6,780 nt of DNA from Candidatus Poribacteria bacterium. GTDB taxonomy: Bacteria; Poribacteria; DTPJ01; WJIO01. The position numbers and the translations under genes are program-made. The DNA lies in assembly GCA_014730235.1 (NCBI GenBank), contig WJIO01000057.1, forward strand, positions 1-6,780, written 5' to 3'. A model generated the notes under the pieces. The model had not been told where the DNA came from. It ran no database searches and saw nothing but the letters and a program-made list of their open reading frames with translations. Shown piece after piece: positions 1-6,459 of the stretch (position 1 is the first letter of the stretch; each line of letters opens with the position of its first letter).

Positions 1-511
1 CCCTTGCTGCATAAATATGCCCTTTTTCAGTTAAAATAAGAACAGAGGCAGAACCCTTAACCTGTTCAAACAGGTTCTTAATTCCCTCAACATAGTCTTC
101 ACCCTGGGCTATTATCTTGGCAGCTACTTCAACTGAGCTTATCTTACCGTCGCTCATTTCAGTGAAAACATGACCATTAGCCTGAAGATTCACTGCCAGT
201 TCCTTGGCATTGGTTATTAAACCCAGAAGCACCAGGGCGAAAGTACCCATTTTAGATCCAACTACAAGAGGTTGAGATTCTCGTATGCCGGTTATGACGC
301 CTATTCCCTGGTTGCCTTTTAGTTCTAATAGGGTGTGGCCAAATTTTCCCCTGAATTGTTCAGATCCAAGCCTGTGAATTTCGTGTTTAAATGTATCCCC
401 TAAAACTGCCAGACCTGCTCTTTCCGAACCCATATGGGAATGATAATCTGTCCCATGAAATAGCTCTTCAATGCAATCCTGTTGACTTACTAAACCAAAA
501 ATACCCGACAT
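1..511 (-). CDS. PurF-like (amidophosphoribosyltransferase-type) protein with degenerate glutaminase domain, partial
   Basis: This is the N-terminal 170 residues of a longer protein; the rest lies beyond the left edge. The start MSGIFGLV, the segment Y23-HSHMGSERAGLAVLG, G66-NQGIGVITG, ESQPL (78-82) and the 89-105 segment align by eye with the class II (Ntn) glutamine amidotransferase domain of PurF, which releases ammonia from glutamine for phosphoribosylamine synthesis. The catalytic signature is missing. Residue 2 is Ser instead of the nucleophilic Cys, the usual GH-x-RYST-type stretch reads GVITG (71-75), and the usual HNGN stretch reads LGLI (96-99). The start is firm: an in-frame TGA lies two codons upstream (515-517), and AAAGGA (518-523) sits 6 nt before ATG. 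It begins 26 bp after the preceding gene, so it is probably co-transcribed with it. The phosphoribosyltransferase domain, if present, is not visible. It could be a purine-pathway paralogue using free ammonia, or a protein with another role. Confidence 0.8.
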   Translation of the reverse strand, partial: MSGIFGLVSQQDCIEELFHGTDYHSHMGSERAGLAVLGDTFKHEIHRLGSEQFRGKFGHTLLELKGNQGIGVITGIRESQPLVVGSKMGTFALVLLGLITNAKELAVNLQANGHVFTEMSDGKISSVEVAAKIIAQGEDYVEGIKNLFEQVKGSASVLILTEKGHIYAAR

Positions 512-537: not shown

Positions 538-1461
538 TCAGGCAATTTTAAAACTTCTGGCATCCTTAAATGAGGGTTCTAAAATAATATCTGATAAACC
601 AATATTATGATCGTATACCTTCTCCATTTCTTCAATAGAATCAAAGAATCCTACCACATAAGCTGTGGAAAAAGTTTCACCCTCATTAACTTCTTCGCGA
701 CCATTTTCCTGGATGAAACATACATATCCTCTCTGATGACACCATGCTTCAGAAACACCAGCCGGATTTAAAGTCATTCCTGCCAACCATGTTCCTGAAA
801 GGGTCTGGTATGCACGAATAAAGCGTTCTGGCATGGGATCAGTGCCGCGAAGATAGCGATAACGGGCATCTGGAGGAAAATCCTCTAAAAAATCCGTATT
901 CGGTATAGTTCCATAATAGCTCAGGTAAATTTGTGAGAAAGAATCGCCTTTATTATGTTTGAGATGACCGGGCATATCAACTCTCAGGGAAAGATTTTTC
1001 ACTGTGTTGACAGAGGTGACTCGATCTGCACAGAAGAAATACCGTGTATTTTCCGGAAAAACTAATATCTGTTCCCACAAAGATCCAGGTTTTCTTCCGT
1101 AGGTGGCTACTTTCCATTTATACCAAAGTTTTACAGCTATAAAATTTTCAGCTTTAACTATTTCATAAGGTAGCTTCTTTGCCCCGGTACATATCTGTGG
1201 AAGTTCCACGTATCGTTTTGGTATATCTCCGTGATAAAGATCGCCGTAATCGTATGTATTGGTTTCACCCGGTTCATCTTTTCCCGGTTCCAGCAGAAAA
1301 TCAACTATACATAGGCCGAAACCCAGATCTCTAGCGTTGGTTTTTTTGTCCATTAATGTTCCGGCAGAAATCCCTGAAACATAACCTTCCGTCTGTATTT
1401 TCGCATGGAGTGCATTAGTTTCAATACTTATTTCAGAGTCGTTGATTTTGTAGTTAAGCAT
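538..1461 (-). CDS. conserved uncharacterised protein, probably cytoplasmic
   Basis: This is a 307-residue protein I cannot assign to a characterised family. There is no signal peptide or membrane segment. It is rich in aromatic residues and alternating hydrophobic stretches, suggesting a mainly beta fold. Well-formed, conserved-looking blocks are G30-ISAGTLMDKKTNARDLGFGL, YDYGDLYHGDIPKRYVELPQ (70-89), PGSLWEQ (125-131), DMPGHLKH (162-169), EDFPPDARYRYLRG (193-206) and EAWCHQRGYVCFI (238-250). From memory, similar hypothetical proteins occur in Planctomycetes-like genomes near carbohydrate genes. A sugar-binding or sugar-processing beta-sandwich is a guess, not a call. ATG at 1461 is preceded by AAAGGT (1469-1474) with 7 nt spacing. 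Only 14 bp separate it from the Uma2 gene, and its ribosome site abuts that gene's stop codon, so the two are likely translationally linked. It also lies 26 bp ahead of the PurF-like gene. Confidence 0.85.
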   Translation of the reverse strand: MLNYKINDSEISIETNALHAKIQTEGYVSGISAGTLMDKKTNARDLGFGLCIVDFLLEPGKDEPGETNTYDYGDLYHGDIPKRYVELPQICTGAKKLPYEIVKAENFIAVKLWYKWKVATYGRKPGSLWEQILVFPENTRYFFCADRVTSVNTVKNLSLRVDMPGHLKHNKGDSFSQIYLSYYGTIPNTDFLEDFPPDARYRYLRGTDPMPERFIRAYQTLSGTWLAGMTLNPAGVSEAWCHQRGYVCFIQENGREEVNEGETFSTAYVVGFFDSIEEMEKVYDHNIGLSDIILEPSFKDARSFKIA

Positions 1462-2170: not shown

Positions 2171-3304
2171 TTATATGTATCCAGTTGATCCATCAGGACG
2201 AACAGGACATGTCCTCTGCCAGTGTATATATGAGTCTTTACTTATAGCCTCCTCATTTACTTCCACGCCAAATCCGGGACGATCCCTTAATTCAAGAAAA
2301 CCATCAATTGGCACATAGGGATCTTCCAGCCAGTGATTATCTCCTGGTAGCAGGTATTCGAGAATCTTGAAATTGGGTGTTGCCGCCGCAAAATGCAAGT
2401 TTACCGCAGTTGCCAGGGGGCCCATCGGGTTATGTGGGGCTACAGTCACATAATGGGCTTCTGCGATGGCCGCGATCTTTCTCATTTCCAATAAACCTCC
2501 GCATGTGCAGATATCCGGCTGGATTATATCTGCACCCTGAGCTGTAAGGAGTTCCAAAAAATCAAAGCGTGTATAAAGACATTCACCAGTGGCCAGAGGA
2601 ACTTGTAATTGACTTCTCAATCGGGACCATGCGGGAATATGCTCCGGTCTCAGGGGTTCCTCGTAAAAATACGGGTCATAAGGTGCTAAGGCGTTTGCCA
2701 ACTGCAATGCCTGTATAGGTTCGAAAATCTTTGCATGAGCGTCAAATGCAAAAAGCCACTCCTGGGGGGTGTTATCTCTCAATTCTTCAAAATATCGGGC
2801 TGCGGCATCGCAAACCATTCCCCATCTGTGGGAATCAGGTGATAACTTATATGGACTAGTTTTAAAAGCTGTAAATCCCCATTCTTCATTAAGCTTTCGA
2901 GCATTTTCCGCTGCTTCTTTACCGTCCCGTCCACCTACTCCCCGGTAAACCTGTATACGATCCCTTACATTTCCTCCAAGGAGCATATAAACAGGCAGAC
3001 CGGCGGCTTTGCCGCTAATATCCCATAGTGCATGATCCAAAGCGGACATAGCTGCCAGGCCAATAGAACCGGGGGGGAAGCGAAGCTGTTGGAAAATTTT
3101 TAGCATTATATACTCGATCCGTCTAGGATCTTCACCTTTGATCATTTCAAATATATAATCAATTGTAGGTTTAATTGCAAGATCCGGACCGTGATTATAG
3201 GCTTCCCCCCAGCCGTATAAGTCTTCGTCAGTTTCAACTTTTATCAACGCCCTGGGACGATTTCCATCTCTGGTTATATAGGTTTTCATAGCTGTTATTT
3301 TCAT
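2171..3304 (-). CDS. mandelate racemase/muconate lactonizing enzyme-family sugar-acid dehydratase (galactonate dehydratase-like)
   Basis: This is an enolase-superfamily enzyme of 377 residues, a normal length for acid-sugar dehydratases, which remove water from an aldonic acid to give a 2-keto-3-deoxy acid in the cytoplasm. The N-terminal capping domain spans about 1-115 (DLYGWGEA, then ALDHALWDISGKAAGLPVY). The barrel follows with K148 in FKTSPYK, D188-A-H190, EEPL with E215, GECLY with E241, QPDICTCGG with D264, APHNPMGPLA with H291, and LEY with E316. D188, E215 and E241 are the three metal ligands. A His two residues after the first ligand is a feature I associate with galactonate/mannonate-type dehydratases. 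I chose ATG at 3304, with GAGGGGG (3314-3320) 9 nt upstream, over an upstream TTG at 3340 that has no ribosome site. The substrate is not determined by sequence; galactonate is the best guess, with gluconate, arabinonate or another hexonate possible. Confidence 0.9.
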   Translation of the reverse strand: MKITAMKTYITRDGNRPRALIKVETDEDLYGWGEAYNHGPDLAIKPTIDYIFEMIKGEDPRRIEYIMLKIFQQLRFPPGSIGLAAMSALDHALWDISGKAAGLPVYMLLGGNVRDRIQVYRGVGGRDGKEAAENARKLNEEWGFTAFKTSPYKLSPDSHRWGMVCDAAARYFEELRDNTPQEWLFAFDAHAKIFEPIQALQLANALAPYDPYFYEEPLRPEHIPAWSRLRSQLQVPLATGECLYTRFDFLELLTAQGADIIQPDICTCGGLLEMRKIAAIAEAHYVTVAPHNPMGPLATAVNLHFAAATPNFKILEYLLPGDNHWLEDPYVPIDGFLELRDRPGFGVEVNEEAISKDSYIHWQRTCPVRPDGSTGYI

Positions 3305-3361
3305 TTGCAGATTCCCCCTCACGAAGTTTTTAAAGATCAACCTATTTTATTAGATGAATTG

Positions 3362-3512: not shown

Positions 3513-4112
3513 ATGATAAACACAGGGATCATTCTTAATAGTTCAGGGAATCTAGAAATGGAAGATGCGGAACTTATCCGGCTTTGTCAAGAAGGGGATA
3601 TGTCTGCTTTTGAATCCATATTTCGTAAACATCAGAACAGGGTCTATAACGTGACCTATAGAATGATGGGAAATCAGGATGATGCAATGGATATGACTCA
3701 GGATATATTTGTAAAAGCATATCAGAAAATAGGCAAATTTAATTTCAAATCGTCCTTTTCCACCTGGATTTATCGTATAGCTGTTAATCATTGCATTGAT
3801 GAACTAAGGAAGAGAAAAAGAAACGGACAATCGGTTCCTCTGGAAGAAGCGATAACAAAGGCAGATGAAACAACACCAGAGAAACAAGCTGTATTAAATG
3901 ACAGGCAGCAAAATGTTTGGAAAGCGATTAATTCACTTAAAGATAAAGACAGATCAATTATAATACTTAGAGATATAGAGGGCTTGTCTTATAAAGAGAT
4001 TTCAAAAGTGATGAAATGCTCCATGGGTCGCGTAAAATCCAGAATTCATGAAGCAAGACAGAAACTGAAGAAAATATTGGAAGAGCAAACTGAGTTGTGG
4101 AACGAAATCTAA
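3513..4112 (+). CDS. ECF-type RNA polymerase sigma factor (RpoE/SigW-like)
   Basis: This 199-residue group 4 sigma factor directs RNA polymerase to stress-type promoters. Region 2 covers about 33-100: AFESIFRKHQNRVYNVTYRM, DDAMDMTQDIFVKAYQKIGKF and FSTWIYRIAVNHCIDELRK, the core-binding and -10-recognition helices. Region 4 covers about 130-188: LKDKDRSIIILRDIEGLSYKEISKVM followed by the recognition helix GRVKSRIHEARQKLKK, which reads the -35. Regions 1 and 3 are absent, as is usual for this class. The start at 3513 has ribosome site AGAGGT 5 nt upstream; an internal ATG at 3558 with AGGGA upstream is an alternative giving 184 residues. An ECF-like promoter sits immediately upstream, and the anti-sigma gene follows after 14 bp, the typical arrangement for a sigma factor controlled by its neighbour. 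Confidence 0.96.
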   Translation: MINTGIILNSSGNLEMEDAELIRLCQEGDMSAFESIFRKHQNRVYNVTYRMMGNQDDAMDMTQDIFVKAYQKIGKFNFKSSFSTWIYRIAVNHCIDELRKRKRNGQSVPLEEAITKADETTPEKQAVLNDRQQNVWKAINSLKDKDRSIIILRDIEGLSYKEISKVMKCSMGRVKSRIHEARQKLKKILEEQTELWNEI

Positions 4113-4126
4113 GGAGGTGTTTATTG

Positions 4127-4663
4127 ATGCGATGTGATGAATTTAGTAAGAATCTTTCTGCTTTTCTGGATAACGAGCTACCCCTGGAAGAGCATAAAAA
4201 AATGGAACTCCATATAGCATCTTGTGAAACATGTCATAAAGAAGCAGAAGAATTGAAAGTTATGGTTAATATCGTTGCAAATACACCTCGACTTGAAGCA
4301 CCTACACAACTGTGGGAAATGACACATAAAAAGATAATCGAGGAAGCTGAAATACCTAAACATTTTAGGTTACCCAACTGGAGTTTTGTTCCTGTAGCAG
4401 CGGCGGTTTTTGCACTTATGCTGTTTTTTGCCAGTAATTATATTTTCTTTCACCAGGATGAAAGTGGAGAAATACCCGTTGCGTATTATATTCAGGAACA
4501 CGTTGCCACTCAAAGCGAATACTCGTTATCAATAGAGCCTGTTTCCGAGTTGACGACAATGACTCAAACTGAAGAAGATTATACACAATTGAATGATAAT
4601 ATATCAGAGCTGGAACTGCTCATGGAGGTCCATTATGGGATTGACGCGACGAATGGTTCTTAA
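4127..4663 (+). CDS. membrane anti-sigma factor with ZAS-type zinc finger
   Basis: This 178-residue protein probably binds the upstream-encoded ECF sigma factor and keeps it inactive at the inner membrane. The N-terminal cytoplasmic domain has C3, H29, C33 and C36 in the spacing C-x25-H-x3-C-x2-C, the ZAS zinc-binding anti-sigma signature. One transmembrane helix follows at about 87-108 (FVPVAAAVFALMLFFASNYIFF region). The remaining 70 residues, about 109-178, are acidic and lie outside the inner membrane; I see no known domain in them. I chose ATG at 4127, with an excellent ribosome site AAGGAGGTG (4111-4119) overlapping the sigma stop codon; an upstream ATG at 4097 lies inside the sigma gene without such a site. 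The 3' end overlaps the next gene by 29 nt. Regulation could be by proteolysis of the periplasmic part, as for RseA, or by redox/metal loss at the Cys cluster. Confidence 0.92.
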   Translation: MRCDEFSKNLSAFLDNELPLEEHKKMELHIASCETCHKEAEELKVMVNIVANTPRLEAPTQLWEMTHKKIIEEAEIPKHFRLPNWSFVPVAAAVFALMLFFASNYIFFHQDESGEIPVAYYIQEHVATQSEYSLSIEPVSELTTMTQTEEDYTQLNDNISELELLMEVHYGIDATNGS

Positions 4664-5762
4664 GACCTGGTGCTATCTGTGCCTTTTTGGTCTAATACTT
4701 ACAGCGTCATCAAATATCAGGGCTGAGGATATGCCTGATCCGCAGGAATTATTTCAGAAAGTCATTAACTCTTATCAAAGTGTGGATTACATTGGTAAGA
4801 TGACTATGATGTTTCTGGGCCCGGGTGGAAGAAGCTCCGTAAGCGAAGCAATAGTATACAGAGAAACACCCGATAAATGGCGAATAGAATTTATATGGCC
4901 CGATGAAATAAAAGGAAGAGGTATGGCCTCAGTAGGTGAAAAAAGATGGCCTATCAAGAGAGAGCGAGGGACAAGAGATAGGCGTTTTATGTGGCACCCC
5001 CCAGGCAGAATGCTGGAAGAAATGCCGTTAAAAAGCATAAAATTGATTCTCAGGAATTATTATATACATATTCTTCAAGGCGGAAGCATTGCCGGACGGG
5101 ATACATATATGATAGAGCTGGAACCAAAAGAAGGTGGAAGACCGTCACGCAAGATATGGGTGGATAAGGAGAAAGGCGTAATGCTCAAGATTGAGCATTA
5201 TGACACCCAAAAACGTCCGGTAGGTTTTTACACCTTCAGCGAAATTCAATATAATCCGAAGATAGATGAATCCCTGTTTCGCGAACCTGAAGATCATGAT
5301 GACAGACCACTAGACCGGGGCCCCAGAAGAAGTGAACGAAGCGAATTGTGGGATCATGGTAAAGGAAAATTGGATATTGAAAGGATCACAAAGGAGGTAG
5401 AATTAGACTTAATAATCAAGGCTGAAATACCAGCAGGATTTGTACTACAAAGCATAGAATCCATGAAATTTGGAAGACATAAAAACGTACATCTTAAATA
5501 TACCGATGGTATGGTTGTTGTCTCGGTATTCCAGTCTCGTAAAAGACCACCTCGTCCAAGGGATCAGGATAATCCATCTCCTCCAAGGGATGATGAGATG
5601 AAAGATATAAAAATAGACGGAGTGAGTGGTCAGGAAAAACAAGCAGGCCCCGTATACATATTACGGTGGAATTATAAAAAACTAGATTTTACATTAATTG
5701 GCGAATTAAATAAAGACAGCATGATTCGCATTGCAAAAACACTGATCAAAGAAGCTGGTTAG
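4635..5762 (+). CDS. exported RseB/MucB-like (LolA-fold) sigma regulatory protein
   Basis: This is a 375-residue exported protein. Residues 1 to about 30 form a signal peptide: R5-R6 and K10, a hydrophobic core at 12-24, and probable cleavage after A30; no lipobox is obvious. Residues about 35-215 resemble the LolA/RseB N-terminal half-barrel (DPQELFQKVINSYQSVDYIG, later GRDTYMIELEP, IWVDKEKGVMLKIEHYD, FSEIQYNPKIDESLF). A highly charged linker (217-245) leads to a second domain (250-375) with the RseB/MucB C-terminal pattern PAGFVLQSIE, YTDGMVVVSVFQ and a closing segment ending in IAKTLIKE. RseB proteins sense lipids or lipoprotein stress and shield the anti-sigma factor from proteolysis, which fits the gene order. 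ATG at 4635 has GGAGGT (4624-4629) 5 nt upstream and overlaps the anti-sigma gene by 29 nt. A Pro/Arg/Asp-rich loop at 303-322 looks like a lineage insertion. A general outer-membrane lipoprotein-sorting role is the main alternative. Confidence 0.82.
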   Translation: MGLTRRMVLKTWCYLCLFGLILTASSNIRAEDMPDPQELFQKVINSYQSVDYIGKMTMMFLGPGGRSSVSEAIVYRETPDKWRIEFIWPDEIKGRGMASVGEKRWPIKRERGTRDRRFMWHPPGRMLEEMPLKSIKLILRNYYIHILQGGSIAGRDTYMIELEPKEGGRPSRKIWVDKEKGVMLKIEHYDTQKRPVGFYTFSEIQYNPKIDESLFREPEDHDDRPLDRGPRRSERSELWDHGKGKLDIERITKEVELDLIIKAEIPAGFVLQSIESMKFGRHKNVHLKYTDGMVVVSVFQSRKRPPRPRDQDNPSPPRDDEMKDIKIDGVSGQEKQAGPVYILRWNYKKLDFTLIGELNKDSMIRIAKTLIKEAG

Positions 5763-5793
5763 CGAATACAGATATATAGAAAGGAACACAAAA

Positions 5794-6459
5794 ATGAAAA
5801 AACTAGCCGGAATACTAGCAGGTACAATGTTAATAGCCATGTTTGTAGGGTTTGTATATACCCAGGAACCCGAAGGGGAAATAATGGAAGAAGAGACCGT
5901 ATTCAGATGCCCGGGAATGGGCATGGGAAGAGGCGCAGGTATGCCCGGTATGATGGGTCGCGGTCGAGGAATGACCAGACATGGTCAGCGTGGTCGAATG
6001 GGCCCAGGTCCTCGACGGGGATTGGCCGGATTTATGATGATGGGACAAATGGGTATAATGGAACATCTTGCTGATGAAATAGACCTGTCAGAAGATCAAA
6101 AAGATGAAATTCATGGGATTATGATTGAACACAGAAAAGAAATGATTCGAAAGAAAGCTGACAGGGAACTGGCGAAAGTGGAACTCCAGGAAATACTCAG
6201 TAAAGATAATCCTGATATGACTTCTATAGAAGATCAAATTCGAGAGCAGGCCATGATCGAAGCTGATATGAAATACTCTCGAATTAAAGTCATGGTTGAT
6301 ATTAAGAACGTATTGTCAGAAGAACAGCACGAAAAGCTCAAAGAGCTTATGAAAAACAGACCAAGAGGCCCACGAGGTAATGATAACCCACCGACAGGTA
6401 GGGGGAGACGTGGTCGCGGTGGTAGATGGGCAAATCCTCCAAAGCCAGATGATAGATAG
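5794..6459 (+). CDS. exported Spy/CpxP-like protein with Met/Gly/Arg-rich N-terminal region
   Basis: This is a 221-residue exported protein. Residues 1 to about 23 are a signal peptide (K2-K3, hydrophobic core 5-21, likely cleavage near T23-Q24). A low-complexity region at 39-90 follows, with many Met, Gly and Arg and a single Cys (C39). The helical core at 90-188 carries two LTxxQ-type motifs, LSEDQ (98-102) and LSEEQ (174-178), the mark of the Spy/CpxP/ZraP/CnrX group of periplasmic chaperones and metal sensors. The C-terminal tail from about 190 is rich in Arg, Gly and Pro. ATG at 5794 is preceded by AAAGGAA (5780-5786); the gap to the RseB-like gene is 31 bp. As last gene of the sigma operon it is likely either the stress effector that protects envelope proteins or the sensor that reports metal or misfolding. 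The Met-rich head could bind copper, but that is a guess. Confidence 0.85.
   Translation: MKKLAGILAGTMLIAMFVGFVYTQEPEGEIMEEETVFRCPGMGMGRGAGMPGMMGRGRGMTRHGQRGRMGPGPRRGLAGFMMMGQMGIMEHLADEIDLSEDQKDEIHGIMIEHRKEMIRKKADRELAKVELQEILSKDNPDMTSIEDQIREQAMIEADMKYSRIKVMVDIKNVLSEEQHEKLKELMKNRPRGPRGNDNPPTGRGRRGRGGRWANPPKPDDR

Follow-up and report, generated by a model that had tools for sequence, protein, structure and literature searches.

The closest described relative of the gene investigated here is PurF, as known from Escherichia coli and Bacillus subtilis (TIGR01134; PDB 1ao0 and 1ecc). β-Lactam synthetase and carbapenam synthetase (AsnB relatives; PDB 1jgt and 1q15) are class II amidotransferase descendants with a vestigial Ntn domain that has no glutaminase function. 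In E. coli PurF, replacement of Cys1 by Ser or Ala abolished the use of glutamine and left the use of ammonia (Mei and Zalkin 1989, cited in PMC3261824). Crenarchaeota carry a PurF paralogue, PurF', which lacks the N-terminal Cys, coexists with real PurF and lies near it and other purine genes; an ammonia-dependent activity was put forward for it as a proposal (Biol Direct 2011, PMC3261824). In the open-access literature searched, the crenarchaeal PurF' was the only such protein found, and no description of a bacterial clade was encountered. Thus, Cys-less PurF' and the idea that it uses ammonia are already known from Crenarchaeota, whereas the bacterial clade reported here was found undescribed in that literature.

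The window, i.e. the whole stretch of DNA analyzed, is contig C421 (6780 bases) of a draft Poribacteria genome (G000; 5.5 Mb, 451 contigs). An open reading frame of 170 codons on the minus strand (2-511), open at the contig edge, encodes the N-terminal pseudo-glutaminase Ntn domain of a PurF paralogue without glutaminase, as identified by PF13537 (E = 3.4e-8) and by alignment. The fragment matched TIGR01134 with E = 5.6e-10 and the full-length homologue from a second Poribacteria genome (G001, the sole relative within its order) did so with 2.5e-60; Foldseek comparison with B. subtilis PurF gave E = 6.9e-40 and a TMq of 0.83. The likeness to PurF is far above chance. The ATG start codon (509-511) follows ATA and, before that, the in-frame stop codon TGA (515-517), so that the region reads TGA ATA ATG, and the likely ribosome-binding site AAAGG lies further upstream of both the ATG at 511 and the TGA. 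With an in-frame TGA only two codons away, the reading frame cannot be extended to a Cys upstream of the ATG, and residue 2, encoded by TCG (506-508) at the place of the catalytic Cys1 of PurF, is truly Ser. A mis-chosen start was rejected on this ground, in agreement with the earlier note.

A search of the contigs of the same genome with the PurF model located the second half of the gene as a 295-codon open frame on the minus strand, right at the edge of contig C95 (G000:C95:20336-21220 = L044:6334-7221). It starts at codon 171 (DKHGRTPL...) and provides residues 171-465 including the PRPP-transferase domain. The two parts add up to 465 codons, which is the exact length of the G001 homologue. 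The ends of C421 and C95 overlap by 2 bases only, so that the join is supported by homology and by the exact match of the frames rather than by shared sequence. The gene extends beyond the 1-511 covered by the earlier note: the N-terminal 170 codons lie there, and the remainder resides on C95. Breakage between two contigs might suggest a decaying pseudogene, a sequencing error or an assembly fault at the contig end, but neither half is interrupted and the frame is maintained. In addition, the window gene shared 78% identity with the full-length gene of G001, pN and pS amounted to 0.15 and 0.75, dN/dS was about 0.09 in the glutaminase domain, and the gene is accordingly under purifying selection in this comparison. 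Independent orthologues in unrelated genomes carry the same changes. Decay or a sequencing fault, to which we give practically no credence, was rejected on the basis of these shared changes and of purifying selection; the gene is interrupted by the contig end alone and is neither decayed nor erroneous. The earlier claim that the rest of the protein is conserved thus held, and the fault that it had named as a possible refutation was not encountered.

To count residues, 19 members of the clade to which the gene belongs (termed X in the following) were aligned with 21 ordinary PurF proteins, with E. coli residue numbers assigned by motif. Cys1 was present in all 21 ordinary PurFs and in none of the X members, which have Gly (11), Ser (7) or Asp (1) instead; in a sister branch the position is occupied by Ala. 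Arg26 and Asp127 were likewise found in 21/21 PurFs and 0/19 X members, the former being replaced by Leu, Met or Phe. Asn101 was retained in two X members as compared with all 21 PurFs, and Gly102 was mostly kept. The glutamine loop Arg73-Tyr74-Ser-Thr76 was deleted throughout X and kept throughout ordinary PurF. In the window protein, GVI-TG corresponds to the GHxRYST stretch and LLGL to the HNGN stretch, and residues 71-78 (GVITGIRE, 278-301) mark the site at which Arg73-Thr76 of E. coli PurF are absent. The earlier note was right that the GHxRYST motif is gone and that recognizable glutaminase residues are lacking from a PurF-like protein; it had read GVITG as a set of substitutions, whereas the alignment reveals a deletion. 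In E. coli PurF, structure and simulations show Arg73 in a salt bridge with a glutamine analogue, and Tyr74 together with Ile335 walls the ammonia channel (PMC7953260). Loss of this loop thus removes the glutamine-binding side and the mouth of the ammonia channel in addition to the nucleophile. As judged from the alignment, the glutaminase of X cannot bind or hydrolyze glutamine by known chemistry.

These data also bear on the suggestion that Ser2, after removal of Met, acts as an alternative Ntn nucleophile and X is still a glutaminase. Ser2 does occur in the window protein and in six members close to it, but the variation at this position, the absence of the glutamine loop and of Asp127 even from the Ser2 forms, and the lack of glutamine activity reported for E. 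coli C1S (PMC3261824) make this vanishingly improbable. The idea, raised by the earlier note, was rejected for the clade because residue 2 varies.

In contrast to the glutaminase half, the phosphoribosyltransferase (PRT) half of all 19 members retained PDS, the flexible-loop Arg332, the closing Lys349 and [DE]DSIVRGT (Ser368, Arg371, Gly372, Thr373). In the window gene itself, the C95 half carries PDSG, the flexible loop (YTPSYGRSYTP...RMKL), EDSIVRGTQ and cysteines that we take to be the equivalents of the 4Fe-4S cluster ligands of B. subtilis PurF. These Fe-S cysteines were kept in all X members except the one from G157; in the genus of G157 (L096+L097, L136, L137), three of the four are replaced by Asp, Ser and Val. 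TIGR01134 spans the C-terminal half of the paralogue, and PF00156 was not reached by this half in the profile search. The PRPP-binding loop, inspected in the full gene, ends in Gln and not in Thr; Thr374 was replaced by Gln and Thr333 by Ser in 19/19 X members. The former position is also varied in ordinary PurFs (Thr 16, Asn 3, Glu 2). Thr374 of the E. coli enzyme contacts a PRPP analogue in simulations (PMC7953260). X members further possess about 30 additional C-terminal residues that ordinary PurF lacks. By its sequence, the PRT site of X is largely intact and under selection.

An AlphaFold2 model of a Poribacteria orthologue (P0002; 78% identical to the window gene), calculated from an alignment with 19 relatives, reached a pLDDT of 84 and a pTM of 0.85. 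Residues 304-321, the flexible loop, were of low confidence, as expected for a PRPP-free enzyme. The best PDB match was B. subtilis PurF (1ao0; Z 41.8, rmsd 2.5 Å over 423 residues), so that two-domain order and fold are shared with PurF over the full length, and an Ntn fold is predicted for the half that lost its glutaminase; the underlying alignment is rich in ordinary PurF and pocket details are not certain from the model. β-Lactam and carbapenam synthetases appeared as distant fold matches; unlike X, their second domain is an ATP-dependent synthetase and not a PRPP transferase. A sequence search for a solved structure of the X clade returned ordinary PurF and GlmS only.

In a maximum likelihood tree of 46 proteins, X and its deep branches separated from all ordinary PurFs with 100/100 support, and the window protein grouped with that of G001 inside X. 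Sequence and tree thus assign the window gene to a distinct bacterial PurF paralogue clade (MxG..GTDYHSHLG) that is spread over many phyla. The deepest branch (G207, L099) kept Cys1, Arg26 and Asp127 and already lacked the glutamine loop. From this single branch, loss of the loop appears to have come first and loss of Cys later. The TIGR01134 equivalog has a cut-off of 350 bits; X members scored about 170-208 (P0002, 205; core orthologues scanned, 178-204), and among NCBIfam models there was none whose cut-off the core members pass. The crenarchaeal PurF' resembles X in the missing Cys and in its coexistence with PurF, but it is archaeal and in many cases has Ala or Val at position 1; the two are likened by published description, not by sequence.

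Within the phylum, X was present in 2 of 84 genomes, and a contig search with the 170-amino acid query returned G001 as the sole Poribacteria relative. Among 204 sampled genomes from other phyla (288 in total, less the 84), 12 encoded X at 46-58% identity and four more contained distant forms at 39-42%. The phyla of G122, G140, G157 and G212 were also searched and gained few genomes, these phyla being small in the collection. Full-length relatives at 42-48% identity were found in Peptoclostridium, Phocaeicola, Parabacteroides, Bacteroides finegoldii and on a contig from faeces that was submitted as "phage". Overall, orthologues in a dozen other bacterial genomes, gut Bacteroidota, Peptoclostridium and one phage contig were 42-58% identical. 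Some are named amidophosphoribosyltransferase in RefSeq, and the guess in the earlier note that the protein represents a known but uncharacterized subfamily proved correct. An IMG/VR contig of 83 kb (L146) also encodes an X member, assigned to phrog_26846, a family without assigned function. This member (L146:8001-9374) is a Ser2 form, and the contig is phage-like, with RNA ligase (PHROG), deoxyribonucleotidase (PHROG) and HNH neighbors.

Purine or amidotransferase genes adjoined X or lay within two genes of it in six of about 15 independent lineages, where neighbors without a Pfam call were recognized from their own sequences. The arrangements were purE-purC-X-purF-purM-purN (L053), purB-X (L085), carB-X-glmS-DUF1846 (L086), gdhA-carB-X-DUF1846-purL-hisF (L136, with the same order from carB on in L137), guaA-X-carA-carB (L099, deep branch) and serA-X-DUF1015-purF (L095). 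At a rough 2% per locus, such a context would arise by chance with a probability of about 3e-7, a figure that is indicative only since the 2% is an estimate. DUF1846 proteins (L136:6516-8063, L086:5009-6532, L101:7110-8624) adjoin the paralogue or its sister branch or lie two genes away in three lineages and are possible functional partners.

The purine and nitrogen gene context together with the largely intact PRPP site leads us to favor, tentatively and with considerable doubt, the reading that X is an active, glutamine-independent PRPP aminotransferase that uses free ammonia. PRPP would occupy the PRT site, the flexible loop would close over it, and free ammonia instead of channeled glutamine nitrogen would attack C1, yielding phosphoribosylamine, the first purine intermediate; X would run beside a normal glutamine-dependent PurF. 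Attack by ammonia is suggested by analogy with the C1S and C1A mutants of E. coli PurF. We thus infer for X an active PRT half, ammonia as acceptor and a product entering purine synthesis. In the genus with gdhA-carB-X-purL, searches of the drafts (90-96% complete) did not find carA in G288, G289 and G291 or purQ in G288 and G291; the same search did not find carA in G212, in which purQ is present. These absences fit ammonia-fed synthetases in that genus and are suggestive only. If they are real, the synthesis of carbamoyl phosphate, FGAM and phosphoribosylamine could all use ammonia there. The carA gene of G157 (L188:73-1167) is split by two in-frame stops, possibly by error in this draft genome.

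Several observations speak against ammonia-dependent synthesis of phosphoribosylamine. Conservation of the pseudo-glutaminase domain is close to that of functional glutaminase domains (mean pairwise identity 49% versus 51%), and the domain has invariant residues of its own (Thr21, Asp22, Tyr23, Ser25, Ile45, His46, Phe57), which exceeds the need of a dead scaffold. This conservation indicates that the domain probably does something and perhaps binds another ligand or partner. Gln at Thr374 in every member, a Cys-type PurF alongside and many loci without purine neighbors, the window's own among them, point in the same direction, as do several loci with pepT: X-pepT-gcvT in Bacteroidota and X-pepT in Peptoclostridium. 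In L049, L050, L051 and L052, from Bacillota and Bacteroidota, pepT lies directly downstream of the paralogue and gcvT follows in Bacteroidota.

As a rival reading, X might be a phosphoribosyltransferase with a different acceptor: an amine other than ammonia would be bound or delivered by the remodeled Ntn pocket, and the product would then not be phosphoribosylamine made from free ammonia. The new invariant residues, the changes of Thr374 and Thr333, the extra C-terminal stretch, the pepT and gcvT neighbors and the coexistence with normal PurF are in line with this explanation; no enzyme that could provide or consume such an acceptor is a regular partner of X, however, and in several lineages X is placed in purine operons. 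We consider a different acceptor unlikely, albeit a serious contender. That the glutaminase pocket was converted throughout the clade to bind a different ligand, with transfer of the phosphoribosyl group to a new acceptor, appears improbable.

A Cys-type PurF was found beside X in 17 of the 18 genomes searched with the PurF model; in 15 of them an ordinary PurF scored above the curated cut-off besides the X-type gene. The two Poribacteria genomes, that of the window included, instead possess a divergent Cys-type PurF of 523-532 amino acids with GHTRYPT and AHNGT motifs. These proteins (L045:1502-3070, L145:3884-5482) have a very long branch and replace the usual Poribacteria PurF in the window's order. 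G137, a genome about 90% complete, contained only the Cys-less deep-branch form. With a Cys-type PurF present, purine synthesis can begin without X. PurF works as an oligomer, and X might accordingly be a regulatory pseudoenzyme that forms mixed oligomers with ordinary PurF or acts as a sensor of PRPP, nucleotides or nitrogen status, in either case without chemistry of its own. Such a role would agree with the coexistence of both proteins, whose genes are at times adjacent (L053) or two genes apart (L095), and with Gln in the PRPP loop. The invariance of PDSG, of the flexible-loop Arg and Lys and of EDSIVRGT in 19 members would be unexpected if catalysis were unneeded, and we regard this role as quite unlikely.

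Should X feed ammonia into purine synthesis, the first step of this pathway would be independent of glutamine in many bacteria, among them gut Bacteroides, and would be annotated there as the ordinary PurF. A different acceptor would mean that current metabolic maps lack a reaction: in many phyla and at least one phage, the label amidophosphoribosyltransferase would conceal an unrecognized reaction that consumes PRPP. Either way, automatic annotation miscounts purF. The clade represents a natural experiment in which the glutaminase was lost and the partner domain kept.

In the window, the PurF paralogue follows, at a distance of 26 bases and on the same strand, a gene for a 307-amino acid protein without Pfam or NCBIfam match (538-1461, minus strand); in G001 it follows argH, and neither arrangement is conserved. 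Further upstream on the minus strand are genes for a Uma2-family putative nuclease (1476-2081) and an enolase-superfamily sugar-acid dehydratase (2171-3340), for which the nearest model, galactonate dehydratase, gave 277.6 of 311 bits and thus stayed under the cut-off. On the plus strand (3513-6459), genes for an ECF sigma factor, a zinc-finger anti-sigma factor, an RseB/MucB-like protein and a Spy/LTXXQ-type protein stand in a row that looks like an envelope-stress operon.
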